From Corynebacterium matruchotii (GTDB lineage Bacteria; Actinomycetota; Actinomycetes; Mycobacteriales; Mycobacteriaceae), in NCBI RefSeq assembly GCF_011612265.2, contig NZ_CP050134.2:2802541-2866540 (forward strand): DNA of 64,000 bases, written 5' to 3'. The translations under genes were made by a program, and so were the position numbers. How positions within the stretch are numbered: position 1 is the first letter of the stretch; each line of letters begins with the position of its first letter. Under the pieces are notes generated by a model. That model made no database searches. It worked only from the letters and a program-made list of their open reading frames with translations, and had not been told where the DNA came from. Positions 987-63,606 of this stretch are shown one piece after another.

Positions 987-2342
987 ATGGCCCATGGATC
1001 CTCGGCTAGGAGAAGCCCTGCTTATAGCAGCTCAAACCGCCCGAAGCGTTCATCGCACTCGGCGCATTCAGCGCATTCGGCGCGCGTGACGAACGCGCCG
1101 GGTGCTCACGTCACACGTGATGCGTCGCGTTCGTATCAGGGGCATTCATATCGAGGTCGGGTATTGGGAGTGCTTATGCTCTCCCAGTTTTTTGCTGCGT
1201 TTCCCCTGGGCATGGTGACCGCGCTCATCCAATTGCAGTATGCGCACCATCATCAGGCGTCGGGAGTGTCTTGGTTGAGCATTGTGTCCCAGGTGGGGTG
1301 CGTGGCGGCAATCGTTGGACTTACGAGGATTACCCTGCGGCAGGGACGTCGATTAGCGCTGGTATTGGGCATGGGGCTCATGTTGGCGGCCAGCGTGTTG
1401 GGATTAGTCTCCGCCCTGCTCGACGTGGATTTACTACTCTACCTTGTTGCTTTCCTGTTGGGGGCGGGGTTGGCCGCGAACTGGTACGCCCCATTTGCCG
1501 CCACGGATTTCTCCTCAAAAACATCGCGTGCCAGCGATTTCTCCTATGTCCTGAGTATGACCGCCATAGGGATGGCCCTGGGGTCGCCAGTGGTGAACTA
1601 CACATATTATTTGGAGCAACAGGCGGAAATTCCCCTTGGGGTCATTGGGTTCACGCTATGCATGCTGTGTTGCATGGTATCGGTCATTATTCTCTGGTTT
1701 GGCCTCCATCCCATAGCAGACACCATGCAGCAATCCGAACATTTGAGCGAAGATAATGATGCCCGGTTTCGGTTTATAGAAGCGCCAGGTGCAAGCGCCG
1801 CAATAGTGACGCTCACCGCCATGATCTTAGTGATCGACCTCCTCTGGACCACAACCACGGTCTATGTGGTGTCTTCCGAAAATGAACTGTACGGCACGCA
1901 GTCATTGATGCTGGTGGGGGCAGCCCAAATATTGTCGAGCCTGATCGGATATGGCATGTCTCCCCTGTTCGGCGTGGTAGCGGATCGGCTGGGGCGCACC
2001 CGGGTGGTGGCGACAGGCTACGGCCTGGCGGTGATAGGTTGCCTGATTTTAGTGGTTGCGGCCAGCGAGACCATGTGGGTGCTCGCGGCCATTGTGATAT
2101 TAGGCATCGGCAAGGTTGCGGTGATGGTTGCCACCGGTGCTTTGCTTGTCGACGCCGTACCGCGCCATCACCGTGTCATCCTGCAGGGATGGGCCGGCGG
2201 CATCAGCATGGCCATCGCACCCCTCGGCACCGTGATGGCATTCTTGGGCATGCCCCGGCTGGCAGCCATCGGCATCATAGTGCTCATCATCGTGTTCTTT
2301 TTCGTATTCGGGGCAGTGCGCCGCACTCCCCGCCACGATTAG
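987..2342 (+). CDS. MFS transporter
   Basis: A 451-residue integral membrane protein. After a ~55-residue Ser/His/Arg-rich cytoplasmic tail there are about 11-12 hydrophobic helices. The stretch GVVADRLGRTRVV, about two thirds along, matches major facilitator motif A between helices. The substrate cannot be told from sequence; drug or metabolite efflux is only a guess. No clear ribosome binding site precedes the ATG, so a leaderless transcript or a later start after the polar tail is possible. Its TAG stop shares bases with the stop of the convergent NYN gene (TTAG), leaving no room for a terminator between them. Confidence 0.8.
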   Translation: MAHGSSARRSPAYSSSNRPKRSSHSAHSAHSARVTNAPGAHVTRDASRSYQGHSYRGRVLGVLMLSQFFAAFPLGMVTALIQLQYAHHHQASGVSWLSIVSQVGCVAAIVGLTRITLRQGRRLALVLGMGLMLAASVLGLVSALLDVDLLLYLVAFLLGAGLAANWYAPFAATDFSSKTSRASDFSYVLSMTAIGMALGSPVVNYTYYLEQQAEIPLGVIGFTLCMLCCMVSVIILWFGLHPIADTMQQSEHLSEDNDARFRFIEAPGASAAIVTLTAMILVIDLLWTTTTVYVVSSENELYGTQSLMLVGAAQILSSLIGYGMSPLFGVVADRLGRTRVVATGYGLAVIGCLILVVAASETMWVLAAIVILGIGKVAVMVATGALLVDAVPRHHRVILQGWAGGISMAIAPLGTVMAFLGMPRLAAIGIIVLIIVFFFVFGAVRRTPRHD

Positions 2343-3559
2343 TCAAACCGATTATTCACCAAAATCCCCCGAATACCCGTGTGAAACCCATCTCGCAATT
2401 GCACCCGCTGGGTTTCAGTCAAGGTATATTCGTGCAGCGCATCGCACGCAAACTGCAGCAGTGGCCGGTCGATTTCTGGGGGCAAACCCCCGCCAGAAAG
2501 TAGATGGGCGGAATCTCGCTGTTCGCTGGTGGCGGCGTTTTCATACCACCAGATGGCATATTGTTGGCCCACATCAAACGGGGTAAGAAACCCGGCGGAA
2601 GTCCACACCTCATTATGCAAGGGCACATAATGCGAGCGGAGCTTGCGCCGGGGGGCCATCATGGAAGGGTTGGGGCGCCTGGTGGGCGCATCGGCTGGCG
2701 AGGGTTTTGCCTTGCCGTCGGAAGCAGCCGATGGGGTTTCGGCGGTTTTTCCCTCCGAACTCATGGTGAGCGAAATCTGCCCAGTTTGTCGAATGGAGTG
2801 GCTATTGTCGGTAAGCGTCTCCATGGTGGTGTGGCTGACCGTAATAGTATTGATATCGTCGAGTTCTGGTTCCGAAAATTCGGGGTCCACTTGTTCAGCA
2901 GGTTTATCAGGCTCGGGTACAGATTCGGTGGCTTCCACTTCGATGGCGACCACCTTGGTTTCTTCGTCGTCAAGCGGATCATCCACAGTGCGCACAATTG
3001 GTGGCAGGGGGCCTTCCAACACATGCAGCTGCATGCAATCGCCGAAATCCTCGCGCGGGTCGAGTATAACCAGGGAATCGCAGGCGTGCCGCAGGGCGGA
3101 AGACATGGAATCCCAACCAAACCCATAAAGATGCACGCGAATCCCATGATTCACCGCTTCTTGCACGCCCGGAATCATGTCGGCGTCGCCCGATACTAAT
3201 ACAATATCGGTGACTTCCTGACGAACACTGGTGAGTACCATGTCGGCAACCAGCCGGGTATCGACGGCTTTTTGCGTACGACGCTCACCCCATTCGATGA
3301 GCTGTCCGGCCCGCAACTGCACCCCATCGCAGGTACGCAGTGCGCGCTGGTAGCGATGCGGCCCGGTGTCGGGAATCCCGTCATACCAAAACTGCCGGTG
3401 AACGGGCTGTTCAAATTGTTCAGTCACCATGGTTCCTAATGTTCGAACCACGGCAGGTAGATCTATTTCTAATTGTGCTCGGGCACCAATTTCCCACGAG
3501 TTATAAAAGCTCGCCAAAAGGTACGACGTATCCACAAAGATTTGTGTGCGTTCAAGCAT
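2339..3559 (-). CDS. NYN (PIN-like) domain protein, putative ribonuclease
   Basis: A 406-residue soluble protein. The first ~180 residues form an NYN/LabA-type domain: an early acidic residue in IFVDTSYLL, a conserved DTRLVADM segment and VLVSGDADMIPGV carry the acidic residues that bind metal in PIN-like nucleases. A variable acidic linker (residues ~190-300) joins a C-terminal ~100-residue region seen in actinobacterial homologues. Family knowledge suggests RNA cleavage or processing; the target is unknown. The start is placed at an ATG just after an AGGAG. It converges with the MFS gene, sharing four bases at the stops, and its 5' side faces the rRNA operon. Confidence 0.75.
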   Translation of the reverse strand: MLERTQIFVDTSYLLASFYNSWEIGARAQLEIDLPAVVRTLGTMVTEQFEQPVHRQFWYDGIPDTGPHRYQRALRTCDGVQLRAGQLIEWGERRTQKAVDTRLVADMVLTSVRQEVTDIVLVSGDADMIPGVQEAVNHGIRVHLYGFGWDSMSSALRHACDSLVILDPREDFGDCMQLHVLEGPLPPIVRTVDDPLDDEETKVVAIEVEATESVPEPDKPAEQVDPEFSEPELDDINTITVSHTTMETLTDNSHSIRQTGQISLTMSSEGKTAETPSAASDGKAKPSPADAPTRRPNPSMMAPRRKLRSHYVPLHNEVWTSAGFLTPFDVGQQYAIWWYENAATSEQRDSAHLLSGGGLPPEIDRPLLQFACDALHEYTLTETQRVQLRDGFHTGIRGILVNNRFD

Positions 3560-4040
3560 GGCTCCTGATGTTTCTTTCGTGTCTAAATAGCTAAATTAAG
3601 TCGTTAATATCAAGCATGCCTTAAAGCAAGCTGCAAGTCGACACGACATTCAAAGCCCCAGCGTACAACTTTGCGGCCACCATAATTATATCTATAGAAG
3701 TATGAGCTCAAGTACCTGTGTTAGTTACATCAAGAGCGTAAGCTAGCAAACTTTGTATAGTTTTTCCCGGTTTTTGTTGTTGTGACGTGGTGGTTTGTGG
3801 TTTTGTGGTGGGGTTTGTATATTTGTGTGGTCGCTGTTTGCGGCCCTTACCTGGTTTTGGGTGGGGTTGTGGGTGGTGGTGTTGTTTGAGAACTCGATAG
3901 TGTGTCATTTGATGAAACGAATTATTGTTTGAACATGAACGCGAACGTGGGCACCAAATAGTTATTGATAGTTGTTGGTGTTTGTTGTTTGTTGTTGTTT
4001 TGTTGGTTTCTTTGTTTTTTGCCTGTAATTTTTTGTTTGT
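3560..4040 (+). promoter_or_regulatory. rrn promoter and leader region
   Basis: A gene-free stretch before 16S. TATAGT at 3756-3761, preceded by TG, is a plausible extended -10 element. From 3765 on the strand is strongly T/G-rich. A box GAGAACTCGATAGTG at about 3888-3903 matches the conserved actinobacterial rRNA leader element linked to antitermination and RNase III processing; a related box, GAGAACTGTATAGTG, recurs in the 16S-23S spacer at 6004-6018. The transcription start itself cannot be fixed by eye. Confidence 0.5.
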
Positions 4041-9222
<5,182 letters not shown>

Positions 9223-9383
9223 CCTAGTGTGTGTGGGCAACAAAGAAATGTGTTGCCGGGAGCATGTGTTTGCCGCAAAAAGAAGAATGATTATTGTGTT
9301 TGTGTTTGTTGTACAGTGTTTGACGCAACACGCTGCCCGTACCCTGTTGGGGTGTGGGGGTGGTTTGTTTCAAATTGGGTTTG

Positions 9384-9502
9384 TGTTGGTGGTTTTAGCG
9401 TCGAGGGTACGCCCGGTCCCGTTCCGATCCCGGTAGCTAAGCTTGACTGCGCTGATGGTACTGCAATCGTGGGGTTGTGGGAGAGTAAGACACCGCCAAC
9501 AC
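9384..9502 (+). rRNA. rrf: 5S ribosomal RNA
   Basis: Its core ACGCCCGGTCCCGTTCCGAT then CCGGTAGCTAAGCTTGACTG, and the closing GGGAGAGTAAGACACCGCCA, match actinobacterial 5S. The start and end pair as TGTTGGTGG with CACCGCCAACA. It lies about 160 bases after 23S, closing the operon. Confidence 0.93.
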
Positions 9503-9532
9503 ACCAAAAACTTAATATCTACATCATGGTGT

Positions 9533-9590
9533 GTGGGGTGTGTGGGGGCTTGTCCGGGTAAAACCGGCAGGCCACCACACACCCCACTTT
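9533..9590 (+). terminator. rrn operon terminator
   Basis: A long imperfect hairpin: GTGGGGTGTGTGG pairs with CCACACACCCCAC around an inner stem CCGG-GTAAAA-CCGG, followed by a short T run. Position directly after 5S supports rrn termination. Confidence 0.8.
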
Positions 9591-9649
9591 CGCACACCCT
9601 AAACGTCGAAAAGCGGCAGGATTTATGAGAAAGTTATCCGGCAAATCAC

Positions 9650-10123
9650 ATGAGCAACAACAAATCCTCTAAACTCATCTTCATGAAACGAGCTCAAATA
9701 GCTGCTGGTCTTACAGCAATACTGGTACTTTCTGGTTGTGGTTCCTCATCAGCCATGAATGAACTAAACCTGTCGTACGAGGGCGCTAAACTGCAATTCA
9801 TGGGGGATGCAGTGCAATGTGCAAAAGACGCACAAGGCGGACTATCGGCAGTGGTGGATCAATCATCCACGAATCAGGCAGACCCCTCGGTTGTGAACCT
9901 CACGCTCATCGACCAGGGCGGCAAACCCATGGTCAATATCTACGCCAACTCCAATAAAACCATTGTGGCCTCCGCAGCCATGGAAACCACCAAGGACGGC
10001 GAAACCTACAACTACAAAGGCAAAGCCCTACTCACCGGAAACAACGAAAACAAAGAGGTTGATGTTGAAGGCTCATTCCGCTGTGTCACATTCGTGGAAA
10101 CCAGCACAACGCCTAGTAAATAG
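9650..10123 (+). CDS. secreted lipoprotein, LpqH (19 kDa antigen)-like
   Basis: A 157-residue protein with a short basic N-terminus, a hydrophobic helix and a lipobox LSGC, so it should be lipidated at that Cys and anchored outside the membrane. The mature part resembles the mycobacterial LpqH/19 kDa antigen family in size and beta-rich pattern (DAVQCAKDAQGG early, FRCVTFVE late), with two conserved Cys. Exact function is unknown; the family is a surface antigen. An alternative start lies at Met12. It converges on the RluA-type gene with an 11-base overlap. Confidence 0.65.
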   Translation: MSNNKSSKLIFMKRAQIAAGLTAILVLSGCGSSSAMNELNLSYEGAKLQFMGDAVQCAKDAQGGLSAVVDQSSTNQADPSVVNLTLIDQGGKPMVNIYANSNKTIVASAAMETTKDGETYNYKGKALLTGNNENKEVDVEGSFRCVTFVETSTTPSK

Positions 10124-11132
10124 ATAACGAGCGGAATTCCCGCTCCACCCCACTGAGGGGATCGGTGAAGCGTAACATCTTAGCCCGAAGATGCATGGGG
10201 ACAGCAAAGTCCTCCTCAGCCTCTGGGAGCACCGTAGGATAAGCTGGGTCGCCCAGGATCGGCACCCCCGCCTTCCACATGTGCAGCCGCAGCTGGTGTG
10301 TGCGGCCCGTAGCCGGCTGTAACACGTACCTGGCCTGTTGTGGTAGCTCCGACCCATGTGTGGCCCGCAGCGCCCGCATACGCTCAGTTGGCACAGGCTC
10401 TACCGCAATCACCGTGGTGATCGCATTCGGTTCCCCCGGAACAAAATAGCCCTGCAGCTCGCCAGGGTTTTTTGTCATGCGATCCCGCCACACCATACCC
10501 GGTTGCGCCTTCGGATTCACCGGATCATAACGCGCAATCGCCTCGTACGTTTTTTCGGCCTCCCGCCGCGCAAACAACTGCTGATACGCCCCCCGAACCT
10601 CCCGGGTCTTCGTAAACACCAACACGCCCGACGTCAATCGATCCAACCGATGCGCCGGCGAAAGCTCCCCGTTACCCGTGAGTTTCCGCAACTGGACCGT
10701 GGCACTCTGGGTAATGTGTTTTCCCCGCGGCATGGTGGCAAGAAACGGCGGCTTATCGACGACTAACAGTCGCTCATCCTCAAAAATGGTTTCACACCGA
10801 TAAGGCACCGGAACCTCAGGGGCGGGAATCCGATAAAACCACACCTCCTGATTCGCCCGCAGCGGCGTCTCTGCCGCCAATTCCCGGTCCTTCGGCCACA
10901 TTCCCGCCCGCACCTCACCCCGGCGAAAACTCGCCCGCAGGGCGGCCTCCGTGTCCGCCGGATGCCGACGCCGCTGGGTGCGCTTCAACTCCCACACAAA
11001 ATCAAACGCGGTCATCCCCGCAGCCGCCGGTGGCACCTGTGCCCGACTCGGATTCAGGCCATCCCGGATCGGTAGTGGCGGCTGCGGACGCCGTGAATGT
11101 GGCCTGCTTGGGTGGGGGTCGGATACGTTCAT
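10113..11132 (-). CDS. RluA-family RNA pseudouridine synthase
   Basis: A 339-residue enzyme converting uridine to pseudouridine in rRNA or tRNA. The catalytic motif HRLDRLTSGVLVF is complete with Asp near residue 164, followed by the family's TGRTHQLRLHM and GDPAYP motifs. The N-terminal ~90 residues are poorly conserved and lack a clear S4 domain. Which base it modifies cannot be told from sequence. Confidence 0.9.
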   Translation of the reverse strand: MNVSDPHPSRPHSRRPQPPLPIRDGLNPSRAQVPPAAAGMTAFDFVWELKRTQRRRHPADTEAALRASFRRGEVRAGMWPKDRELAAETPLRANQEVWFYRIPAPEVPVPYRCETIFEDERLLVVDKPPFLATMPRGKHITQSATVQLRKLTGNGELSPAHRLDRLTSGVLVFTKTREVRGAYQQLFARREAEKTYEAIARYDPVNPKAQPGMVWRDRMTKNPGELQGYFVPGEPNAITTVIAVEPVPTERMRALRATHGSELPQQARYVLQPATGRTHQLRLHMWKAGVPILGDPAYPTVLPEAEEDFAVPMHLRAKMLRFTDPLSGVEREFRSLSIY

Positions 11133-11200
11133 GTTTGCTAATGCTATTACGGCGAGTAAATTAAGAGAAAGCTTAAGTCCGAGACGAATGGAGAACCCCC

Positions 11201-11365
11201 ATGGATTTTAACGCCATCATTGAACCTGCCATCAAATTCTTTTCGACCGGTATCGGTGCCATGATCGCCGAATTTGCCCGGGCCATCTACAACGCCCTGT
11301 ATCCGGCCAATGCTGGTGCCGCCACCACAGAGACCTCCGCGGTCACCCCGCCTCCCGGTAAGTAG
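11201..11365 (+). CDS. 54-residue amphipathic small protein
   Basis: An ATG preceded by GGAG (11190-11194) opens a 54-codon frame. Residues 1-37 form one amphipathic helix (MDFNAIIEPAIKFF... ending AIYNALYPANA), followed by a Thr/Ala/Pro tail. It has no classical signal peptide. The size, acidic start and helix are reminiscent of the short mycomembrane porin peptides of Corynebacterium (PorA/PorH class), but I cannot confirm homology. It sits between the RluA-type gene and uspA and has its own upstream gap. Confidence 0.6.
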   Translation: MDFNAIIEPAIKFFSTGIGAMIAEFARAIYNALYPANAGAATTETSAVTPPPGK

Positions 11366-11491
11366 GGGCGATGCACCTTTGGGCGTCGTAAAGCAGGGGC
11401 CAAATTCACAGCGCGTAGTGGTTCTAACCAGTATCACAACTGGTAAAATAAGTGGTATATAACCGCTTCTACGTGAAGAAAGGTCCCAAAT

Positions 11492-12448
11492 ATGACTGCC
11501 GAAAACACCGTCGTAGTAGCTGTTGATGGTTCTGACGCCGCCAAAAATGCGGTACGTTGGGCAGCTAACACCGCATCAAAGCGTGGCGTTCCGCTCCGCA
11601 TAGCCTCCAGCTACACCATGCCACAATTCCTCTACGCAGAAGGAATGGTGCCACCCCAAGAACTCTTCGACGAACTGCAGGCCGAAACCATGAGCATTGT
11701 CGAAGAAGCCAAAAAAATCGCTGAAGAAGTCAACCCTGACCTCAAAATCGCCTACACCATTGCCGAAGGCACCCCCATCGACATGCTGTTGGAGCTCAGC
11801 GAAACCAACAAAATGATCGTCATGGGCTCCCGTGGCCTCGGGGGGCTCTCTGGCATGGTGATGGGGTCCGTTTCCGCTGCCGTGGTATCCCACGCGCACT
11901 GCCCAGTTGTGGTGGTGCGGGAAGACAACCACCTCACCGAAGAAAACAAATACGGCCCTGTCGTGGTAGGTGTCGATGGTTCGGACGTGTCCCAGCAGGC
12001 CACCGAATTCGCCTTCGCCGAGGCCGACGCCCGGGGCGCCAAGATTGAGGCCATCCACACGTGGATAGACATGCAGGTCCAGGCCTCCCTGGCCGGCCTG
12101 GCTGCCGCGCAACAAGAATGGAAAGTGGTGGAAGAGGAGCAGACCCAACTGCTGCAAGAACGCCTCGCTCCCCTCCTGGAACAATATCCCAATGTTGATG
12201 TGGACATGGTTATCACCCGGGACCGGCCCATCCGTGCACTTGTCGACGCAGCAAAGCACGCCCAGCTGCTTGTAGTCGGCTCCCACGGGCGCGGCGGCTT
12301 CCGGGGCATGCTGCTTGGCTCCACCTCCCGAGCCCTATTGCAGCAAGCACCCTGCCCCATGGTTGTGGTTCGGCCGACCAAGCCAATCAAACAGGCCAAA
12401 TCATTCAAATCGCTGAAGTCGTCTAAAACACCGAAGTCAGACAAATAG
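11492..12448 (+). CDS. universal stress protein, tandem UspA domains
   Basis: A 318-residue cytoplasmic protein of two fused UspA domains (about 4-147 and 155-300). Each ends in an ATP-binding G-2X-G-9X-G-S/T motif: MGSRGLGGLSGMVMGS in the first and VGSHGRGGFRGMLLGS in the second. The last ~20 residues are a Lys/Ser-rich tail (KSFKSLKSSKTPKSDK). Family members help survival in stress and stationary phase. An AGAAAGG precedes the ATG, and a terminator follows. Confidence 0.92.
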   Translation: MTAENTVVVAVDGSDAAKNAVRWAANTASKRGVPLRIASSYTMPQFLYAEGMVPPQELFDELQAETMSIVEEAKKIAEEVNPDLKIAYTIAEGTPIDMLLELSETNKMIVMGSRGLGGLSGMVMGSVSAAVVSHAHCPVVVVREDNHLTEENKYGPVVVGVDGSDVSQQATEFAFAEADARGAKIEAIHTWIDMQVQASLAGLAAAQQEWKVVEEEQTQLLQERLAPLLEQYPNVDVDMVITRDRPIRALVDAAKHAQLLVVGSHGRGGFRGMLLGSTSRALLQQAPCPMVVVRPTKPIKQAKSFKSLKSSKTPKSDK

Positions 12449-12475
12449 GTTGTAGCGGTTGTAGCGCGTGCTGCT

Positions 12476-12506
12476 GAGCCCCGGTTCACCACCGGGGTTC
12501 TTTTTT
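12476..12506 (+). terminator. terminator after uspA-type gene
   Basis: A stem GAGCCCCGGT / ACCGGGGTTC with a 3-5 base loop, followed by TTTTTT. A good intrinsic terminator 28 bases after the stop. Confidence 0.85.
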
Positions 12507-12585
12507 GCATTAGGTAGTGGTGCCGAAGCGGGGGATGCTCATGGATGCTCATGGATGTGGTTGTGGGGCCTGTGGGCCGCGTTGT

Positions 12586-12696
12586 TCTGAATCGTTCCAG
12601 TTGTAGGGCTGCAAGTTTGGTGGGCTGGGGTTTGTTTTTGTCACCTGTTGTGGGTGGGGTGACTTCCGACAAGTCCTAGCCCACCAAATCTGAAGC
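12586..12696 (+). repeat. palindromic repeat, copy A
   Basis: The arms TTTGGTGGGCT (12616-12626) and AGCCCACCAAA (12678-12688) are perfect inverted repeats. The left flank CTGAATCGTTCCAG and right flank GAAGCC are shared with the copy at 16651. It lies in a gap with no gene. Confidence 0.8.
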
Positions 12697-12788
12697 CTTT
12701 ATGGTTGGGGTGCCGATGGCTCACGAGTAGTCGGCTCTGGCCTGATTTTGGCCAGATTCTGGTTTCTGCTACCCGTCCCCATGGCGGG

Positions 12789-12876
12789 GCTGCAAGTTTG
12801 GTGGGCTGGGGTTTGTCAGGCGGGTGGCAACGCGCGGCAGGCAGCAAAAACAAATGCCAGCCCACAAAATATGCTA
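12789..12876 (+). repeat. palindromic repeat, copy B
   Basis: The left arm GCAAGTTTGGTGGGCTGGGG is identical to copy A. The right arm AGCCCACAAAA (12859-12869) has one mismatch. The centre differs completely from copy A. Confidence 0.75.
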
Positions 12877-13013
12877 CTTATTATTACCGAGTTTATCCGG
12901 TAGAAAATGTTATCTAACTGTAGCTCTATTACGACCCAATGATGGTGGGGCTACCCCTATACTTGGAGGTGCTACTGGCAAACACGTAGACATTAAATAG
13001 TTAGGAGTAAAAA

Positions 13014-13274: not shown

Positions 13275-13289
13275 TATCACGCCTGGTCA

Positions 13290-13315
13290 GGGGAGCAATT
13301 ATTGCTCCCCTTTTT
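13290..13315. terminator. bidirectional terminator overlapping the xre stop
   Basis: The perfect stem GGGGAGCAAT / ATTGCTCCCC is followed by TTTTT. The same bases encode the last codons and TAA stop of the convergent regulator gene. Confidence 0.85.
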
Positions 13316-13541: not shown

Positions 13542-13636
13542 GAGATTAAGGCTAGTAAGATGTCTGGAAAACGGCAAGGGCTGACCTGCATTTTTGGGTT
13601 GGGGTGGTTTGGTGAACGTGGAATTATGCTTAAAAT

Positions 13637-49227: not shown

Positions 49228-49232
49228 CCGCC

Positions 49233-49864: not shown

Positions 49865-52299
49865 CCATCCAGCATCGAACATATTTTCTGCAACAGGGTG
49901 ATTGCGCCGCGTTTGTCTAACGGCTGGTTTCCATTCCCGCACTTCGGCGACTGCACGCATGACGGGCACCCCGACTCGCACTCACAGCCCGCCACTGTCA
50001 CCGCGGTCGCCGAAACCCACTCGCTAAACCGGGAAAACCCGCAGTCCGCGAACCCCGCCCCGCCCGGATAGCCGTCATACACAAACACCGTGGGTAGCCC
50101 CGTGTCCTGGTGCAACGCCGTCGACACCCCACCAATATCCCACCGGTCACAGGTCGCCACCAGCGGCAAAAGCCCAATTAGCGCATGCTCCATCGCGTGC
50201 AACGTGCCCGGCACATCCTGAATCCCCAACTCCGCCAACACCACTGGATCTATCGTGATCGCCACCGCCCGAGTCACCAGCGACTCCGGCGGCATACCCA
50301 ACGGCACCGCTGCTAGCGTCGCCCCGCCCGGATCCCGCACCGCATAGCCTGTCACCTGCCGGGTCACCTCCACCAGCATATTTGCCACCAGCAGCCCCGG
50401 CGCCACCTCATCGCATGCCGCATCAGGCGCTGACACCACCCGAATCGTCGTCGACGACAGCGCCTGCGTGAAATAATCCGGCATCTCCCCGTGCACTAAC
50501 GCCACGCCTTCCGCCAGCGATAACTCATCCACCACATAGCTACGCCCCTGATGCAAATACACCGCGCCCGGATGCACCTGGCTCGCCGCCTGGCCGGCAT
50601 CGACCGTGCCCACCACCCGGCCCGTCGCCGACTCCACAATCGTGACCTCCCGGCCCGAACCCCGCACACTCACCACCCGATGTGGGTCCGGCTGCCCCGG
50701 TGGCACCGCCGCATAATATCCCCGCGGTCGCCGCCGCAACCACCCGTCCGCCACCAGCCGGTCCACCACCGGCCCCGCCCGAAACCACGCAACTTCCCGA
50801 TCCGTCAGCGGCGCCTCCAATGCCGCGCACAGAACATGGCCGGCAAGAATGTGGGGATTGGTGGGATCGAACACCGCCGCCTCCACCGGCCTGCTGATGA
50901 GCGCATCCGGGTGGTGCACCAAATACGCATCCAGCGGATCCGCACTGGCGATAAGCGCCACCGTGGCGGCCTGATTCCGCCGCCCGGCACGCCCCGCCTG
51001 CTGCCAAAAACTCGCAAGAGTTCCCGGAAACCCGGCCGTAATCACCGCATCCAAACCCCCAATGTCAATCCCCAACTCCAGGGCATTGGTGGCAGCAACC
51101 CCCAATAGCTCACCATCGTCGAGTGCCTGTTCGATCCGCCGCCGGTCGGCCGCTAAATAACCAGCCCGGTAGGCGGCAACCCGGGCACTCAGGTCTGGTC
51201 TACCGACCCGGGCCAACTCCGTTTGGGCGCGCAACGCTACGAGCTCCGCGCCGGCCCGGGACTTGGTGAACACCAGGGTGCGGGCACCCTCGACGAGGAA
51301 ATCCGCCATGAGCAGCGCCGCCTCCGTGGTCACGGAACGCCGTCGGTCACCAGGGCGAACGTCGGCTTGCCGCCCCGCATCCCCCGCATCCGCCGCCAAG
51401 CCTTCCCCCGTGCCCCCACCGGAAGCCTCACCGGAGTCTTCGCCGAGGGCCCCGCCGGAGGAATCCGCTGGCCCCGCTTCCGTGAGAATAATGGTGCGCC
51501 GACCCCGCGGCGACCCATCCTCGGTGACTGCCACCACGTCAGGATCGCCAATGAGCCGTGCCGCATGCTGGGCCGGATTATTGCTGGTGGCGGACGCCAG
51601 GATCACGACCGGCCCGCCAGTTTTCGGCCCACCATGCCCGCCGGCCCCAACCCCACCCCCACGCCTGCCTTCCCTCATATTGCCCCGTGGCTGCTGTGCG
51701 CGCCGAGCGAGCCGGAGCAGCCGCCGAAGCACCAGGGAAACATGCGCCCCAAAAACACCCCGGTATTGGTGGGCCTCATCCACGATGACATATCGCAGGT
51801 TTGCAAACAGCCGCCGCCACAGGTCCGGGTAGGCGAGAATCCCGCCGTGGAGCATGTCCGGGTTAGTGACTAGGTAGCGGCTGGTGGCCCGAATGGTGCG
51901 GCGGGCCTCGGTGGGGGTGTCACCGTCGTAAGGCGCGGGGTTGATGCTGGCCAGCGCCGGGTCGGCCCGACAGAGCCGCAGTATTGCGGTGAGCTGGTCG
52001 TTTCCCAAGGCTTTGGTGGGGGTGAGGTAGAGGGCGCAGGCTGCCGGGTCGCGGGCCAGGTCGGTGAGGGCGGGGAGTTGGTAGCCCAATGATTTCCCCG
52101 ACGAGGTGCCGGTGGCGACAATGACGTGGCGCCCATCGTGGGCGGTGGTGGCGGTGAGGCTTTGGTGCTGGTAGGGGCGGGTGATGCTGTATTCGTCGGC
52201 AAGCTGGGTGATGAGTGGGGGATATGCCCAGGTGGGCCAGTCGCCGTAGACTGCGGGTCGGGGCGGCTGGGTGATGGTGGTGCGGTAGGTGGGGGTCAT
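49861..52299 (-). CDS. DEAD/DEAH-box helicase with C-terminal Zn-binding DUF1998 domain
   Basis: A ~812-residue superfamily 2 helicase. VATGTSSGKSLGYQLPAL is Walker A, YVIVDEAHQYRGVFGAH the DEAH box, and QAGRAGRRNQAA motif VI. The C-terminal region carries the four-Cys cluster CECESGCPSC...CGNGN of DUF1998. A variable Gly-rich insert lies around residues 225-330. The actinobacterial family (Rv3649 position) resembles Hrq1/MrfA-type DNA repair helicases; the exact role here is untested. The start is the ATG before TPTYRTTI. Confidence 0.9.
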   Translation of the reverse strand: MTPTYRTTITQPPRPAVYGDWPTWAYPPLITQLADEYSITRPYQHQSLTATTAHDGRHVIVATGTSSGKSLGYQLPALTDLARDPAACALYLTPTKALGNDQLTAILRLCRADPALASINPAPYDGDTPTEARRTIRATSRYLVTNPDMLHGGILAYPDLWRRLFANLRYVIVDEAHQYRGVFGAHVSLVLRRLLRLARRAQQPRGNMREGRRGGGVGAGGHGGPKTGGPVVILASATSNNPAQHAARLIGDPDVVAVTEDGSPRGRRTIILTEAGPADSSGGALGEDSGEASGGGTGEGLAADAGDAGRQADVRPGDRRRSVTTEAALLMADFLVEGARTLVFTKSRAGAELVALRAQTELARVGRPDLSARVAAYRAGYLAADRRRIEQALDDGELLGVAATNALELGIDIGGLDAVITAGFPGTLASFWQQAGRAGRRNQAATVALIASADPLDAYLVHHPDALISRPVEAAVFDPTNPHILAGHVLCAALEAPLTDREVAWFRAGPVVDRLVADGWLRRRPRGYYAAVPPGQPDPHRVVSVRGSGREVTIVESATGRVVGTVDAGQAASQVHPGAVYLHQGRSYVVDELSLAEGVALVHGEMPDYFTQALSSTTIRVVSAPDAACDEVAPGLLVANMLVEVTRQVTGYAVRDPGGATLAAVPLGMPPESLVTRAVAITIDPVVLAELGIQDVPGTLHAMEHALIGLLPLVATCDRWDIGGVSTALHQDTGLPTVFVYDGYPGGAGFADCGFSRFSEWVSATAVTVAGCECESGCPSCVQSPKCGNGNQPLDKRGAITLLQKICSMLDG

Positions 52300-52834: not shown

Positions 52835-52875
52835 AAGCTTTTCGACGCTTGCCCCTGGTGGCTGCGTGAAAAAAT

Positions 52876-53008: not shown

Positions 53009-55969
53009 ATGGCTGAAGGCAATGACATCAAGCGTCTGGTCATCGTTGAGTCCACGACGAAGGCCAAAAAGATTGCCCCCTATTTAGGCAGCAATTACAT
53101 CGTTGAGGCGTCGGTGGGTCATATCCGTGACCTGCCGCGGGGGGCTGCTGATGTGCCGCCGAAATATAAGAAGGAGCCATGGGCGCGACTCGGGGTGAAT
53201 GTGGATAAGAACTTCACCCCGTTATATGTGGTGAGCCCGGATAAAAAGAAGAAGGTGGCGGATCTCAAGGCCAAGCTCAAGGATGTGGATGAGCTGTTGT
53301 TGGCCACTGACCCGGACCGGGAGGGTGAGGCCATTGCGTGGCATTTGTTGCAAACCTTAAAGCCGAAGGTGCCGGTGCGGCGCATGGTGTTCCATGAGAT
53401 CACCAAGCCGGCGATTTTAGCGGCGGCCCAAAACACCCGGGAGCTGGACAATAACCTGGTGGATGCGCAGGAGACCCGCCGCATTTTGGACCGGTTGTAT
53501 GGCTATGAGGTTTCCCCGGTGTTGTGGAAGAAGGTGATGCCCCGGCTGAGCGCGGGCCGGGTGCAGTCGGTGGCGACCCGGGTGATTGTGGATCGGGAAC
53601 GCAACCGCATGGTGTTTGTGCCGGCCGAGTATTGGGACTTGGCGGCCGAGTTCACGGCCCCCGCGTCGGCGGGCACGGCGTCGCAAGGCTCGTCGACAAG
53701 CACGGACGGCGGGGACGACCGGAAGTTTACGGGCCGGCTGAGCAGGGTCAACGGCAAGCGGGTGGCTGCGGGCCGGGATTTCAACGATCGTGGCGAGCTC
53801 ACAAGCGACGCGGTGGTGGTGACCAAGGCGCAGGCCGAACAATTGGCTACCCAATTGCAGCACGTGACCCTGCCGGTCATAAACGTGGAGGAGAAGCCGT
53901 ACACCCGGAAACCGTCGGCGCCGTTCATGACTTCAACGCTGCAGCAGGAGGCGGGCCGGAAGCTGCACTACACGTCGGAGCGCACCATGCGGGTGGCGCA
54001 GCGACTGTACGAAAACGGGCACATCACCTACATGCGTACCGACTCCACAACCCTATCTGAGCAGGGTTTGCAGGCCGCCCGGCAGCAGGCGATCGCCTTG
54101 TTCGGCAAGGATCATGTGGCGGATTCGCCGCGTCGCTACGACCGTAAGGTGAAGAATTCGCAGGAGGCCCACGAGGCTATCCGCCCGGCCGGGGAACAGT
54201 TTTCCACCCCGGCGGAGCTCCGGTCACAGCTGGATGCGGAGGAATATAAGCTGTACGAACTGATTTGGCAGCGTACGATCGCATCGCAAATGGCGGATGT
54301 GAAGGGCGTGTCCATGAAGGTCACGATCGGTAACGAGGATGTGGAGTTCACCACGACGGGCCGCACGGTCACGTTCGCCGGGTTCCTGCGCGCCTATTCG
54401 GATGCGATTGCCGATGCCGCCGCGAGCTCCGACGCGAACCAAAGCCGACTGCCGCACCTGAAAGTCGGCGACGAGGTGGCGATTTCCGATGTTGCCGCCG
54501 ACGAGCACACCACGAACCCGCCCGCCCGCTACACCGAAGCGTCGCTGGTGAAAAAGATGGAGGATTTAGGCATCGGCCGCCCCTCCACATACGCCAGCAT
54601 CATTAAAACCATTCAGGACCGCGGCTACGTGTATTCGCGCGGCAATGCGCTGGTGCCCAGCTGGGTGGCGTTCGCCGTGGTGGGGTTGATGGAGAAATCG
54701 TTCGCCGCCCTGGTGGACTATGATTTCACGTCCTCCATGGAGGATGAGCTCGACGACATTGCTGCAGGGAACGAGGTTGGTGCGAACTGGCTCAAGGGGT
54801 TCTATTTCGGCGACAAGCACGCCTCCGACGCCACCGCCGAAACCATCGCTCGCCAGGGCGGCCTGAAAGCGCTGGTGGGCAATAACCTGGAGCAGATTGA
54901 TGCGCGAGTGGTCAACTCCCTACCGCTTTTCGACGACGACCAGGGCCGACCCATTTATGTGCGGGTGGGCCGGTACGGCCCCTACCTGGAACGCCAAATC
55001 GGGGTGAAACCGGACGGGGAACCCGAATTCCAGCGCGCTAACCTTTCCGACACCACCACCCCGGACGAGCTCACGCTGGAGTTCGCCGAGAAACTCTTCG
55101 CCACCCCCCAATCGGGCCGGGAGCTGGGCGTAAACCCCGCCAACGGCCGGGTCATTGTGGTCAAAGAGGGTAGGTTCGGGCCCTATGTCACCGAGATCAT
55201 GGGTGCGGACGAGAAGGAAAAAGTGGCGGTGTCCGCGGAACAGATTGTTGCCGAGGAGCGGGCCGCGGAGGACGCCCAACGCGCCGCCGAGGGCAAGCGG
55301 GCCAAAAACTGGGAGACCAAAACCGCGATTGCCGCGAAGGAAAAACGCATCAACCAGATCATTGAGGAAACCCTGAAGCCGGCCACCGCTTCCTTGTTCT
55401 CCAGCATGGACCCGTCCACGGTGACCCTGGAGGAAGCCCTGCAATTGATCTCCCTGCCCCGGGAGGTGGGGGTAGATCCCACCGACGGCCAGATGATTAC
55501 CGCCCAAAACGGCCGCTACGGCCCCTATCTGAAGAAGGGCACGGATTCCCGATCCCTAAGCAGTGAGGAACAAATCTTCACCATCACCCTGGATGAGGCC
55601 CGCCGCATTTATGCGGAGCCGAAACGCCGGGGTCGGGGCGCCGCCACCCAGCAGGCCATTAAGGAACTGGGCGATAATGACGTGTCCGGCAAGCCCATGA
55701 GCGTGAAGGACGGCAGGTTCGGCCCCTATGTGACTGATGGGGAAACCAATGCGTCGCTACGCAAGGGTGACGATCCCCTCACCCTGACGGATGCGCGGGC
55801 CAACGAACTCTTGTCCGAGCGGCGCGCCAAAGAAGCCGCGGACGGCGGGCCGAAAAAGAAGGCCACGAAGAAAACCGCGGCAAAGAAGAAAACCACGACG
55901 AAGAAGGCGGTGAAGAAACCGACGAAAACCACCAAGCGGGTCGTGAAGGCCGGCAGCCGCAGTAAATAA
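53009..55969 (+). CDS. topA: DNA topoisomerase I
   Basis: A ~986-residue type IA topoisomerase relaxing negative supercoils. The Toprim domain starts RLVIVESTTKAKKI and has LLATDPDREGEAIAW. The active-site Tyr341 is in HITYMRTDST. The C-terminal part has three actinobacterial TopA repeats marked by GRFGPYV or GRYGPYL, no zinc fingers, and a Lys/Thr-rich tail (about the last 45 residues) that binds DNA. The start at MAEGNDIKRL matches the family; an in-frame ATG 24 bases earlier is less likely. Confidence 0.96.
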   Translation: MAEGNDIKRLVIVESTTKAKKIAPYLGSNYIVEASVGHIRDLPRGAADVPPKYKKEPWARLGVNVDKNFTPLYVVSPDKKKKVADLKAKLKDVDELLLATDPDREGEAIAWHLLQTLKPKVPVRRMVFHEITKPAILAAAQNTRELDNNLVDAQETRRILDRLYGYEVSPVLWKKVMPRLSAGRVQSVATRVIVDRERNRMVFVPAEYWDLAAEFTAPASAGTASQGSSTSTDGGDDRKFTGRLSRVNGKRVAAGRDFNDRGELTSDAVVVTKAQAEQLATQLQHVTLPVINVEEKPYTRKPSAPFMTSTLQQEAGRKLHYTSERTMRVAQRLYENGHITYMRTDSTTLSEQGLQAARQQAIALFGKDHVADSPRRYDRKVKNSQEAHEAIRPAGEQFSTPAELRSQLDAEEYKLYELIWQRTIASQMADVKGVSMKVTIGNEDVEFTTTGRTVTFAGFLRAYSDAIADAAASSDANQSRLPHLKVGDEVAISDVAADEHTTNPPARYTEASLVKKMEDLGIGRPSTYASIIKTIQDRGYVYSRGNALVPSWVAFAVVGLMEKSFAALVDYDFTSSMEDELDDIAAGNEVGANWLKGFYFGDKHASDATAETIARQGGLKALVGNNLEQIDARVVNSLPLFDDDQGRPIYVRVGRYGPYLERQIGVKPDGEPEFQRANLSDTTTPDELTLEFAEKLFATPQSGRELGVNPANGRVIVVKEGRFGPYVTEIMGADEKEKVAVSAEQIVAEERAAEDAQRAAEGKRAKNWETKTAIAAKEKRINQIIEETLKPATASLFSSMDPSTVTLEEALQLISLPREVGVDPTDGQMITAQNGRYGPYLKKGTDSRSLSSEEQIFTITLDEARRIYAEPKRRGRGAATQQAIKELGDNDVSGKPMSVKDGRFGPYVTDGETNASLRKGDDPLTLTDARANELLSERRAKEAADGGPKKKATKKTAAKKKTTTKKAVKKPTKTTKRVVKAGSRSK

Positions 55970-56079: not shown

Positions 56080-57203
56080 ATGAAACTGCGTGCGGCACTG
56101 GCGGTAACAGCGACCATACTTGCCGGTGCCGTGGGCGGACTGTCCGGTTGCGCCCTACCGACCGGCATGGCGGGTCTCGGCAACGGCGCCGGCACCGGGC
56201 TGACCGGCACACAGGTGGCCGACACCGAATGCCACCCCCAACTCGACCTGGCCGAAACCGCTTTCGGACTGTGGGTAACTGCTAAGAAAATCCCCATCCA
56301 GGGCAGCAGCCACCAGTTTTATTTCACAGTGCAGGACAACTACTTCGACCCCTGCGCCGACCTCAGCTGGGTGACCCTCCAGGGCGTGGAGCAGGACCCG
56401 GCGCACTACGATCCCATGGCAATGGAATCCGCACAACGCACTCTCATATTTTTTCATCGTGACCAATTGATTACCGATGCGAGTTTCCTCCTTGCCTATG
56501 ATGCGCGCGACATTACGGTCGCCGATAACCAGCTGGAAGTCACCTACGAAGCCCTAGCCTACCCGCGCGTGACCGAGGGGCCCACCCAGAAAATCACCTA
56601 TAAATATGCGGATGGGGCGCTGCGGCAGCAAGCCAACCCCACCATCGACGTGAAGCCTCTGAAGCTGGACTTTCACACCAACCCGCCCGCGAGCGACGCC
56701 ATCACCATCCCCCTGGGTAACGCGAATTACTCGCCCGCAATTAAAACATATGAAGGTAATGTGCTTGCCGACGTCCCCATGGGCGGCGGAAAAATCCTCT
56801 GCGATTTCTACCTGACCCAGAAAACCAGCGGCCCGAGCTGCACGAACCGGCAGAAAGCCACCTGGCCAATCGTCAATGAGGGCCCCGCGCAGGCGCCAAC
56901 CAATAGCGACAGCAAGAGCAACAGTGAAGGTAAAACCAATTTCGCAGCCTTCTCGTTCAGCCCACCACCATCATTGCGCACATCCTATTTCCCGTCGGGG
57001 AATATCAACCCGAGGACACGTTCCCGGACGAGTCCGTGGTGCAAGTGGGCCCCTATTTTGTGGATACCCGCGGCGATACCGTCAAGATTTCGAATAATTC
57101 CAGCACCGTGGTGCTTGGCGACGGCGTGGCGGAGCTCCGGGACGAGCCACTATTCACTCTGGACAAATCCCGGTGGCCGCAGGATCTGAAGTCGAGCCGG
57201 TAG
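56080..57203 (+). pseudogene. secreted lipoprotein with a frameshift
   Basis: A signal peptide with lipobox GLSGCALP opens the frame after TGTGGAG. The external domain contains paired Cys (TECHPQLD, FDPCADLSW) and reads normally to about residue 285. Beyond 56934 that frame turns into unrelated Arg/Pro-rich sequence, while another frame continues with sensible coding (TIIAHILFPVGEYQPEDTFP, then VVQVGPYFVDTRG) to a TAG at 57201-57203. One base is gained or lost between 56934 and 56960. The protein family is not recognised beyond a corynebacterial lipoprotein after topA. It is probably intact in life if the indel is a sequencing error. Confidence 0.7.
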
Positions 57204-58648: not shown

Positions 58649-59326
58649 TTATTTTTGTGGTTTATTTGTGGGTCGAGGTGGCGTATGTTCTTCGAAGAAC
58701 AGGTCGAGGACTTCTTTGCCATTGATAGGGGTTTTACCAGTTTTATAGCTGTGCCATACTCCAGCCGCAGGTTCGAGGGCCCAGGCGATTTCTTCCCAGG
58801 AATAGCCACGTCGGTAAGCACTGAATGCCATAACGACGGCATCATCAAAGTCATCACTTCTAACATGCTCATAGTATTTTCGCATGGCAGAGATGATTTT
58901 TTCTACTGGAATATCATCAATAAGCACCCAATCATCAGAGGTAATGTTCTCATTTGGAATGTAGGTAATACCAAAATCCTTATTCGCATAGGGCATTAAT
59001 TCTGGTGGAGTTACCATCATTAATGGTGCTGTTGACCAACTGGCAGAAAAATGCTGGATGCGTAATGCTAAATCACAAGCGAAGTAGGGCATAGGGTGTC
59101 GCTTTTCGGTGGGATAGTGGGGAATGCTATCAACCAATCTCGATAGGCATCATCAGCAAGATTATATGTAACAAGTTCGGTGTAGTACACATACTTCATA
59201 AACTCTTCATCCTGTGGTGGGACGCCAATGAAACCAGTTCCGCAGCCTCATCATTAATTCTTCTTTGGTGATTTGGCAAGGGAGAATGAATCCGTGTTGT
59301 TTTTCTGCTATTTTTCGATAATCCAT
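58649..59326 (-). pseudogene. AbiEi-type antitoxin, reading frame broken
   Basis: An ATG after AGGGA gives MDYRKIAEKQHGFILPCQIT, a start typical of AbiEi HTH domains. After EELMMRLRNW the frame must shift (near 59240) to FIGVPPQDEEFMKYVYY and YNLADDAYRDWLIAFPTIPP, then again (near 59105) to MPYFACDLALRIQHFSASWS through to HTPPRPTNKPQK. Joined, this gives one protein of ~225 residues directly upstream of the toxin. Two single-base indels break it. Either the antitoxin is lost, which would be odd beside an intact toxin, or the indels are sequencing errors. Confidence 0.65.
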
Positions 59327-60217: not shown

Positions 60218-61008
60218 CTACAGCTGCATTTCCTCTAGGATCTTTCCGGTGGGCTTGTCGCTGCCGGCCACCGGTTCCTCGGTCAGAAACACCTTGGATG
60301 TGGCGGATTCGAATGGCATCCACACGTCTTTATGCTCCTCTGGGGTGATTACCCCGGCCGAATTGATGCGGCCGGCTTGGTTCACGCTCCATACCTGGAT
60401 TCCCATGCCTTTTTTCACCTCGGGGGTGCCCTGCACCATTGCCCCGGCCTTATTCATGGTGGTGGATGACACCAGGTGAAGTTGTACCCCACTGGAACTC
60501 ATGGTGATGCTTTGGGCATCCGCGGACTGCATGATCTCGGACATCGCCTGGTTGGTAGGCCCGGTGCTGGGGCGAAGAGCAGCTTGGGCAGGAGGAATCC
60601 GCTGCCAGCCAAGAGTGCGACCACCGCGGCCGCCGCGGCAATGAACATGATGCGTTGCTTCGATAAGCGAAACCGCCAATTGCCCAGGTTGATAACACGC
60701 CCACCACCGGCACTACTCGCCTCACCGGCACCGGCCCCACCCGAATCCGCCTTGGCCGCGGTCACATCCGCAGGCTCCGCAGCATCCGGGTCCGTGGCAG
60801 CAGCGTCCGTACTGGTCACCGCGTCTGTGACTGCGGCGTCCGGGGCACCGGAATCCCCCTCCGGTTCGATTCCGTTGATGGCTGCCAGCACAGTATCCTT
60901 CAGGGAATCCGACGGGGTGACCGGCACCGTGGACAACGCCAGGGCGTCGGCAAGCTCAGCGTCGGCTAATTTCTCGTCGGGTAACCAGGATTGGTCCTTA
61001 GTAGTCAT
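60218..61008 (-). pseudogene. rskA: anti-sigma-K factor RskA, frameshifted
   Basis: The first frame gives a cytoplasmic anti-sigma part (DEKLADAELADALALSTVPV), an Ala/Asp-rich linker and a membrane helix (IMFIAAAAAVVALLAGSGFL). Near 60570, in a run of four G/C, the frame shifts. The other frame continues with the external RskA domain: TGPTNQAMSEIMQSADAQSI, AMVQGTPEVKKGMGIQVWSV, and the closing SATSKVFLTEEPVAGSDKPT. Together they make a complete ~260-residue RskA, which holds SigK inactive at the membrane. The ATG overlaps the end of sigK. The single-base indel is likely a sequencing error. Confidence 0.8.
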
Positions 61009-61966: not shown

Positions 61967-62017
61967 GCGGCGGTTGGCACCGAATATTCCCACAAGAACT
62001 TTGAAAGGACTTTACTC

Positions 62018-63606
62018 ATGGTTTCTCTTATTCTGATAGGTCTTATCGGTGGGGTGTTGACGAGTCTTTCCCCCTGCATTATCCCGGTGCTGCCACTGGT
62101 TTTGGCCGTGAGCGCCGGGGATAAGCGGCGCCCCTACTATGTGGTGGCCGGCATGGTTGTCAGTTTCGCCGCGATCACCCTCAGCGGTTCGATCGTGCTC
62201 AATTTATTGGGGCTGCCCCAGGACACGGTGCGCTGGGTGGGCATTGGGCTGCTCGTCCTCGTGGGCCTGGGCATGCTCATTCCGGTGCTGGGCGAGTGGG
62301 TGCAGGCGCCATTCGACCGGCTGCCCCGCCTCCACGCGCTCCTGACCAAGGCGCAGGGCCGGGGCGGTTTCGTAGTGGGGCTGGCCCTGGCGCGGTGTAC
62401 GTTCCGTGCGCCGGGCCGGTCCTGGCCGCCATTACTGTTGCCGCGGCCACCGGTGAGATTGATACCTCGATCATCGCACTGACCATCGCGTTTGCCATTG
62501 GTGCGGCCATTCCGCTGTCCATGTTTGCCCTTGGCGGCAATCGCATGAGCGACTGGTTTCGATCCCATCACACCGCTTTTCGACGCTCGGCCGGTGCCGT
62601 CGTCATCGCCATGGCGGTCCTGCTTGCTGTCGACGCCCCAACGGCCCTCCAACGGCTCGTGCCCGATTGGACCAGTAGTGCCCAACAGGCCCTAGGAAAC
62701 CACATCATCGGAAACCAAGACCTGGAGTCCTGTCGTAAGGGTGACCCCGGAACCCCACACGATTGCGGCCCAGTGCCGCAACTATCCAGGCTAGAGAACT
62801 GGATCAACACCGACCAGGCCATTGATCCGGCCACCTCGGGGAAGGTGACCCTGGTGGATTTTTGGGCCTATGCCTGCATCAACTGCCAACGTGCCAACGA
62901 GCACGTCGTCAAGCTTTACGACCACTACAAGGACTATGGCCTTGACGTCATCGGCGTGCATGCGCCCGAATATGCATTCGAACGGGATGCGGACAACGTT
63001 CGGAAGGCCATCGTAGCGCAGCACATCAAGTACCCGGTGGCGCAGGATAATAGCTTCGCTACCTGGAAAAACTTCCATAACCGCTATTGGCCGGCGCACT
63101 ATCTTGCGGACCACACCGGTCGGCTGCGGCAGGTGCACGAGGGCGAGGGCAAATACGCGGAGACCGAGCGGGTGGTGCGGCAGCTCTTGCAGGAGCGCAA
63201 TCCGGGCATTGCACTACCAAACCCGATTGAACAGGACGAACACGCCATCACTGAGCCGCGATCCCCGGAAACCTACCTGGGTGCCTCCCGGTCACAGTAC
63301 CGGGTTTCGGGAACTCCGCCGCTGGGATATTATGCGCTTCAGGGCGAGTGGGACGTCAACCCCATGGACATCACGCCCCGGAGTGATGGGGCGGCGGTGG
63401 AGCTTCACTACCAGGCCCGTTGGGTGCAATTGGTGGCCTCTGGGCGGGGAACGGTTACGGTCAAACGCGCCGATGGTACTGAACAAACTTTCGATATCAC
63501 TGGTGATGGTACAGTGGATATTATTCGTAAAGATAATGGGGATCCAGAACTTATCACCATTGCGCCATCCCCAGGTGTTCATCTGTATTCCATTACTTTT
63601 GGCTGA
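62018..63606 (+). pseudogene. dipZ: DipZ: CcdA membrane domain fused to thioredoxin-like domain, frameshifted
   Basis: The first frame encodes CcdA-type helices (LTSLSPCIIPVLPLVLAVSA with the redox Cys) to about residue 125. Near 62390, at CCCTGGCGCGG, one base is missing. The next frame continues with AVYVPCAGPVLAAITVAAAT, the second CcdA Cys half, more helices, and a periplasmic-type thioredoxin domain with DFWAYACINCQRANEHVVKL (CINC), then a C-terminal beta domain (YYALQGEWDVNPMDI). Joined, it is a normal ~530-residue DipZ, moving reducing power across the membrane. GAAAGGAC sets the start. Confidence 0.85.

Follow-up and report, generated by a model that had tools for sequence, protein, structure and literature searches.

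A dispersed, conserved word in Corynebacterium genomes as a putative DNA uptake sequence with several dialects

Introduction

DNA uptake sequences (DUS) occur in more than 3,000 copies in some species of the Neisseriaceae, within genes and between them and as inverted pairs in gaps, and they form eight dialects that follow phylogeny, two of which are found together in the genome of Simonsiella muelleri (PMC3630211). The uptake signal sequence (USS) of Haemophilus influenzae is present in about 1,300 copies (PMC5217627), and the USS of the Pasteurellaceae are described as having no orientation bias round the chromosome and an excess in non-coding DNA (PMC1939737); one favoured reading frame is reported for known uptake sequences (PMC2346458). 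Tad genes have also been connected with DNA uptake: in Micrococcus luteus, comEA and the tadA genes are counted among the competence genes (PMC6667448), and Tad pilus function is reported to be essential for uptake in Liberibacter crescens (PMC8513845). Here we describe an 11-base word with two free bases, GCTTNNCGACG, which is dispersed over a 64-kb stretch of Corynebacterium matruchotii DNA (the window). This stretch is the final 64 kb of the source genome, a single contig of 2,866,540 bases that is designated G000 below.

On the strength of sequence comparisons, we think it probable that GCTTNNCGACG is the main, and probably ancestral, dialect of a Corynebacterium DNA uptake sequence, preferential uptake itself being putative. 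No description of the motif, or of an uptake sequence in Corynebacterium, was found in searches of the open-licence literature, which agrees with a first-pass annotation of the window, made from its letters alone, that knew of no corynebacterial motif of this kind. A survey of spaced motifs that included three Corynebacterium genomes recovered CRISPR pairs there (PMC5217627).

Genome and motif counts

An exact search of the window yielded 42 copies of GCTTNNCGACG, 20 on the plus and 22 on the minus strand, which corrects the earlier count of 38 (19 per strand). In 100 dinucleotide shuffles the expectation was 0.47 copies (standard deviation 0.67, maximum 3), and the strong over-representation first noticed in the window proved far larger genome-wide: G000 contains 702 forward and 701 reverse copies (1,403, about one per 2 kb), compared with 29 forward and 33 reverse copies (62) of the reversed word, used as a control. 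In a 464-kb sample of G000, made up of 20 spaced stretches and the window (21 stretches), 232 copies were counted against 6.4 expected under an order-4 Markov model. None of the 27 one-base variants exceeded 4.1 times its Markov expectation in this sample; the first free base was C in just 4 of the 232 copies, and the most frequent two-base fillings were GT, TT, TA, AT, GC and GA.

The first-pass annotation had also raised the alternatives of a whole-genome count near the Markov expectation, from which the above figures are far removed, and of confinement to a few paralogous genes. Flanking sequences show no relation to one another across the 42 window copies (at most 0.29 bit of information per position), and the copies therefore do not represent a few paralogous genes. 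A dispersed repeat element, of the repetitive extragenic palindrome or miniature inverted-repeat transposable element type, was rejected on the same figure, there being no homology beyond the core of these 42 copies; nor was an extended AT-rich flank found around them. The copies are listed below as found by exact search, with intergenic position according to a crude gene caller; eight are the identical 11-mer GCTTTTCGACG, as the earlier annotation had stated.

2144-2154, plus strand, GCTTGTCGACG
2965-2975, minus strand, GCTTGACGACG
9604-9614, minus strand, GCTTTTCGACG, intergenic
10751-10761, plus strand, GCTTATCGACG
11384-11394, minus strand, GCTTTACGACG, intergenic
14399-14409, plus strand, GCTTTACGACG
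14508-14518, minus strand, GCTTTACGACG
16774-16784, plus strand, GCTTGTCGACG, intergenic
17438-17448, minus strand, GCTTATCGACG
19842-19852, minus strand, GCTTTGCGACG
20168-20178, plus strand, GCTTGCCGACG
22593-22603, minus strand, GCTTGACGACG
22673-22683, plus strand, GCTTGACGACG
25664-25674, minus strand, GCTTATCGACG, intergenic
28897-28907, plus strand, GCTTTTCGACG, intergenic
30843-30853, minus strand, GCTTTTCGACG, reaching 2 bases into the edge of a tRNA gene (30771-30844)
31814-31824, minus strand, GCTTGACGACG
32013-32023, plus strand, GCTTGACGACG
32681-32691, plus strand, GCTTGGCGACG
35265-35275, plus strand, GCTTTTCGACG, intergenic
35604-35614, minus strand, GCTTGCCGACG
36670-36680, plus strand, GCTTATCGACG
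38669-38679, minus strand, GCTTTACGACG
38725-38735, plus strand, GCTTTTCGACG
40964-40974, minus strand, GCTTGTCGACG
42019-42029, minus strand, GCTTGTCGACG
43198-43208, minus strand, GCTTTCCGACG
43436-43446, plus strand, GCTTATCGACG
44085-44095, minus strand, GCTTAACGACG
45141-45151, plus strand, GCTTTACGACG, intergenic
47610-47620, plus strand, GCTTGACGACG, within the longest tadB frame, intergenic by the crude caller
47795-47805, minus strand, GCTTGACGACG
52194-52204, minus strand, GCTTGCCGACG
52837-52847, plus strand, GCTTTTCGACG, intergenic
53691-53701, minus strand, GCTTGTCGACG
54925-54935, plus strand, GCTTTTCGACG
56763-56773, plus strand, GCTTGCCGACG
57113-57123, plus strand, GCTTGGCGACG
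58809-58819, minus strand, GCTTACCGACG
60945-60955, minus strand, GCTTGCCGACG
62575-62585, plus strand, GCTTTTCGACG
62904-62914, minus strand, GCTTGACGACG

The largest gap between copies in the window extends from 2965 to 9604, and the rRNA operon (16S 4042-5596, 23S 6127-9223, 5S 9385-9501) is free of the motif, as had been claimed. The further claim of absence from an AT-rich toxin-antitoxin region may not hold in full: the copy at 58809 lies inside the GC-poor 58-60 kb of the window (GC 0.424). Motif density drops in GC-poor DNA. Positions 1-20000 of G000 are likewise GC-poor (46%), hold 2 copies only in 20 kb and may be a genomic island.

Motif placement

Placement relative to genes was taken from the crude gene caller. 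In the window it puts 10 of the 42 copies between genes, close to the earlier figure of about nine and including all seven positions then named (9604, 16774, 25664, 28897, 35265, 45141 and 52837). The 232 sample copies comprise 160 coding, 69 intergenic and 3 at edges, non-coding DNA making up 20.5% of the sample. Copies on the strand opposite to the gene account for 57 of the 160 coding ones, and 93 of the 103 on the same strand share the frame CTT-NNC-GAC (Leu-X-Asp). Among the 58 intergenic copies with usable flanks, the nearest gene end is a 3' end for 36 (p=0.018 against a background of 46.5%), and the neighbouring genes are divergent for 5 (p=0.022 against a background of 20.5%). Some gaps contain inverted pairs that could form a perfect hairpin, GCTTTTCGACG...CGTCGAAAAGC, and all six pairs less than 45 bp apart in the sample are inverted.

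The word is scarce in the two mobile records compared, a phage and a phage-like plasmid. In the 42,972 bases of phage BFK20 there is 1 copy against 15.4 expected at host density, and in the 49,000 bases of pCGR1, a plasmid whose annotation includes terminase, portal and capsid genes of phage type, there are 2 against 17.5. Host density was that of G065 (1,183 copies), which we take to be C. glutamicum ATCC 13032; the recorded host of BFK20 is Brevibacterium flavum, a name that presumably belongs to C. glutamicum.

Distribution and conservation

Among 242 Corynebacterium genomes, 170 contain GCTTNNCGACG, hereafter the C form, at least 4 times as often as the reversed word, with 115-1,964 copies in each (median about 1,090); 7 of the remaining genomes lie at 2-4 times and 65 below 2. 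Summed over the 170 genomes the strands hold 91,753 and 91,833 copies, and no genome deviates at p<0.01. A sample of 298 genomes from the order included 293 that do not belong to Corynebacterium, and in these the maximum, read by eye, is about 1.8 times the reversed word; examples are G505 (149/139 vs 81/81 for the reversed word) and G401 (226/192 vs 131/115). A 21-kb locus of Corynebacterium sp. S30M_Sa_12, whose TadA is 69% identical and the best among the matches listed from named genomes, contains 18 copies; at least two of the 80 loci listed are Corynebacterium records.

Dialects were sought by a gapped-word search in 40 kb from each of 18 low-count genomes, and the motif was returned for all three motif-rich genomes used as positive controls. 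The search gave GCTTNNCGATG (the T form) in three genomes (G001, G004, G107), a longer version of that word in G097, and CGCGNCGTCA in G012; no dialect-like word was found in the 40 kb from each of the other 12. The T form is present in at least 200 copies in 17 of the 242 genomes, and G024 carries two forms, with 1,337 T-form and 352 C-form copies. In G012, CGCGNCGTCATC occurs in 179/167 copies (346; control 1/1), with no more than 39 in any of the other 79 genomes searched. Neither main form (C or T) is found in 47 of the 242 genomes. The word TCGCCGAGG of G206 was rejected as a dialect, being a codon-periodic GC-rich word and a codon artefact. Other repeated words were seen in G011 (GCCGNNNNCGGCG), G049 (TGTGNNTAACT and TGGATAACT) and G120 (CTTCTTCGC).

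A midpoint-rooted tree was built from the TadA, TadB and TadC proteins of 40 genomes, and is thus a tree of Tad proteins and not of species. The C form extends across its deep branches, motif-free genomes are scattered, and the 8 T-form genomes on the tree share a single clade with two motif-free genomes. The dialect states on this tree suggest that the C form is ancestral, that it switched to T once and was separately replaced once, and that the motif was lost several times.

Site retention between species was compared with that of permuted words matched for composition and number of CpGs. The motif was retained above the control words in all four pairs: 68/70 vs 278/316 at 98.0% identity, 36/37 vs 86/117 at 95.1%, 32/41 vs 72/209 at 86.5%, and 28/40 vs 52/184 at 85.3%. 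This retention argues that the copies are held by selection or drive. The word is abundant across the genome and kept between species, as the first-pass annotation anticipated in proposing a genome-wide DNA signal, and it is a conserved signal of that kind, explained or not, even if it should not be an uptake sequence.

Competence genes

A complete Tad locus of seven genes is present in the window (45324-49864):

45324-46388, plus strand, Ssd/CpaE-like (TadZ-type) ATPase at the start of the locus, presumed part of the uptake machine (TIGR03815, 1.5e-70)
46389-47537, plus strand, TadA-family pilus ATPase, presumed part of the uptake machine (PF00437, 3.8e-49; TIGR03819, 2.1e-136)
47516-48406, plus strand, TadB-like membrane protein (PF00482, 3.8e-9)
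48286-48954, plus strand, TadC-like membrane protein, longest frame, the true start probably further in (PF00482, 4.1e-9)
48976-49227, plus strand, Flp-type pilin candidate (PF14029 DUF4244, 5.2e-21)
49233-49538, plus strand, TadE-like minor pilin candidate (NF041390 TadE_Rv3655c, 5.9e-4, below cut-off)
49535-49864, plus strand, Rv3654c/TadE-like minor pilin candidate, called TadF here (TIGR03816, 6e-18; PF13400 below cut-off)

After the locus come, in the window, a DEAD-box/MrfA-type helicase, then a cold-shock gene, then topoisomerase I, and most of 20 genomes examined share this order. All but one of the 242 genus genomes (241) have ComEC, the exception being a 90%-complete genome, and DprA and a TadA-type ATPase are each present in 80 of 80, in two different panels. 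The HhH domain of ComEA is also present in 80 of 80, where the top match is usually a larger protein (about 750-950 residues) and not ComEA; a ComEA-sized HhH frame (about 180-400 residues) occurs in at least 73 of the 80. The seven genomes outside the ComEA-sized matches listed are G008, G029, G103, G112, G113, G139 and G225, six of them motif-poor. ComEC, the Tad ATPase and DprA were rejected as separators of motif-bearing and motif-free genomes, being near-universal in the genus.

In an 80-genome panel, the 19 genomes that score under 159 bits for TadA all lack the motif. G007, G142 and other low-scoring genomes have a diverged Tad locus, a weak TadE or none, and no motif. Competence genes may have decayed in some motif-poor genomes: DprA is diverged or split in the motif-free G029, G112 and G162, and an in-frame TGA lies within the match to ComEA in G007 and within that to ComEC in G123. 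The TadE match spans a stop codon in several motif-rich genomes, among them G061, G062, G034 and G041, where it may simply overrun the real start.

The mycolic-acid synthase Pks13 passes the cut-off in 46 of the 47 motif-free genomes, and motif-rich G005 has a match of only 2.7e-13; a requirement for the mycomembrane was therefore rejected. G005 holds 1,539 motif copies, and the Pks13 match is split into two pieces in G022 and G097.

Discussion

In the scheme that we favour, naked DNA would be taken up by way of ComEA, ComEC and the Tad pilus. A surface receptor, which may be one of the Tad minor pilins, would read the word during uptake and prefer DNA that carries it. Recombination of such DNA into the chromosome would let the word accumulate and persist through molecular drive, whether or not selection for own-kind DNA also acts. 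A change of receptor would change the word, as may have happened with GCTTNNCGATG in some species and CGCGNCGTCATC in one, and where specificity or competence was lost the word would decay. Of the possibilities listed by the first-pass annotation, which included methylation, repair and nucleoid-protein sites, an uptake sequence fits best; a recombination hotspot of RecBCD type is contradicted, since RecC (PF04257) was found in 0 of 57 genomes, and the classical RecBCD-Chi system is therefore out.

The minor pilin TadE gave a lead towards a reader. Its match is weak or absent in 35 of 47 motif-free genomes vs 9 of 187 motif-bearing ones (counted by eye; Fisher p 4e-23, uncorrected for ancestry), the latter being the 170 C-form genomes, 16 further T-form genomes and G012, with eight intermediate genomes excluded. 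There is no match at all in 4 of the 9; G171 is a good assembly, and the other three (G156, G168 and G189) are broken up or incomplete in that region.

Several observations weigh against the uptake scheme, some of them touching this lead. The weak-match cut (E above 1e-16) was set after the table had been seen, the TadE genus model was built from 12 rows of motif-bearing and 4 of motif-free genomes, and the link between TadE and motif absence is confounded by ancestry. Since much of the divergence looks like that of one diverged group, and 12 of the 47 motif-free genomes give a good match, TadE is a lead and not proof; in alignments and trees of TadE and TadF no residue pattern separated dialect from ancestry. 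The machinery as a whole is present with or without the motif, and the motif-free genomes G011, G029, G043 and G131 carry all seven Tad genes. Direct close pairs, 12 and 18 bp apart, occur elsewhere in G000. By most of the sequence features compared the word resembles DUS and USS, but it departs from them in strand polarity and in terminus bias: no bias towards gene termini was found, unlike in the Pasteurellaceae, and in G000 neighbouring copies lie on opposite strands in 140 cases and on the same strand in 71. Alternation is weak in the C-form genome G022 (153 opposite, 102 same). A published analysis of H. influenzae uptake data describes orientation as irrelevant (PMC1939737), and the same-strand repulsion of the C dialect is the best argument for a polar signal read inside the cell.

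Such a signal, for recombination or repair, Chi-like and served by AdnAB or another nuclease, would recur in each orientation every 2-3 kb or so. The alternation in G000 arises because same-orientation pairs closer than 2 kb are scarce (49 vs 107 expected); opposite pairs are distributed almost at random and only slightly exceed expectation at distances under 300 bp (28 vs 19). Among 200 control words of like abundance, compared in G000 only, none repels as strongly: the same-strand neighbour share is 0.336 for the motif vs a control mean of 0.556, and the same-strand pair ratio below 2 kb is 0.46 vs 1.27, with 0 of 200 as low in either. Strand totals over the 170 genomes are also more even than chance (dispersion 0.63 vs 1.11 for a control word, the genomes being related and not independent; 0.90 in 14 T-form genomes), and scarcity in the phage and the phage-like plasmid would equally suit a signal protecting self DNA. 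Mycobacterial AdnAB, however, is not known to be Chi-responsive, and the missing RecC counts against this reading as well. The repulsion is weak in G022 (133 same-orientation pairs below 2 kb vs 167 expected) and missing in the T-form genome G024 (114 vs 109; neighbours 77 opposite, 102 same), and four T-form genomes pooled show no alternation (47 opposite, 41 same). No strand heterogeneity was found among the 21 stretches of G000 and no polarity along the chromosome, unlike Chi and the FtsK-orienting polar sequences (KOPS); KOPS themselves were rejected, as no orientation towards the terminus was seen. We judge a polar intracellular signal to be unlikely.

Copies in G000 are also spaced more evenly than random (coefficient of variation 0.79 vs 0.99, standard deviation 0.065; 0 of 2,000 simulations as even), which would suit a chromosome-organising or nucleoid-protein site that needs even spacing. 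That explanation is improbable given the dialects within one genus, the absences from otherwise similar genomes and the occurrence of pairs below 60 bp, and when each strand is taken by itself the copies of G022 are only slightly more even than simulated (0.86 vs 0.93), those of G024 not at all (0.99 vs 0.99). A methylase, restriction or other defence recognition site, over-represented as a self mark, would agree with the self/non-self distribution in the two mobile records and with absence from some species, but the word is non-palindromic, with a 2-base spacer that does not resemble Type I sites, and restriction sites are usually avoided, not amplified; we regard it as very improbable. A functionless by-product of mutation, codons or a repeat element is scarcely credible. 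The single frame of 93 of the 103 same-strand coding copies speaks for it; against it stand the 69 of 232 copies in gaps, the 57 of 160 coding copies on the opposite strand, the unrelated flanks in the window, the 27 one-base variants, none of which shares the enrichment, and retention above control words in 4 of 4 pairs.

An uptake sequence thus stays our preferred explanation. A more far-reaching reading, which we offer tentatively and would put at somewhat less than an even chance, is that Corynebacterium possesses a third, independent system of self-recognition in uptake, Tad-based, ancestral to the genus and, to our knowledge, the first outside the Gram-negative Pasteurellaceae and Neisseriaceae, with at least 3 dialects, repeated losses and, in the main dialect, strand polarity over about 2 kb. 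We know of no description of such polarity for known uptake sequences. If the word is an uptake sequence, natural transformation guided by a species password exists, or existed until recently, in much of this genus of skin, mouth and soil bacteria, including what we take to be the industrial species C. glutamicum. It would mean a third origin of the trait, a natural experiment in dialects and losses across 242 species, a handle on the receptor and, perhaps, a simple way to transform C. glutamicum by natural means.

Comparison with known systems

KOPS and Chi are short over-represented oligonucleotides that are polarised along replichores; the Corynebacterium motif is likewise a short over-represented word, and differs from them in being unpolarised along the chromosome. 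With the Tad-dependent uptake of M. luteus and L. crescens, Corynebacterium shares the same kinds of genes; for M. luteus, a difference is that the published account names no uptake sequence (PMC6667448). The likeness to the USS of the Pasteurellaceae lies in copy number, the lack of an orientation bias round the chromosome and the non-coding excess, whereas the Corynebacterium motif has a two-base gap in its core and is without the AT-rich flank (42 copies) and the terminus bias. From the DUS of the Neisseriaceae it differs in that the word is unrelated, the host belongs to the Actinobacteria, the role of Tad is presumptive, the receptor ComP has no known equivalent here, and the strands alternate in the C dialect; like those DUS, it is present in many copies, in genes and in gaps, forms inverted pairs and is divided into dialects, with one genome, G024, carrying two forms.

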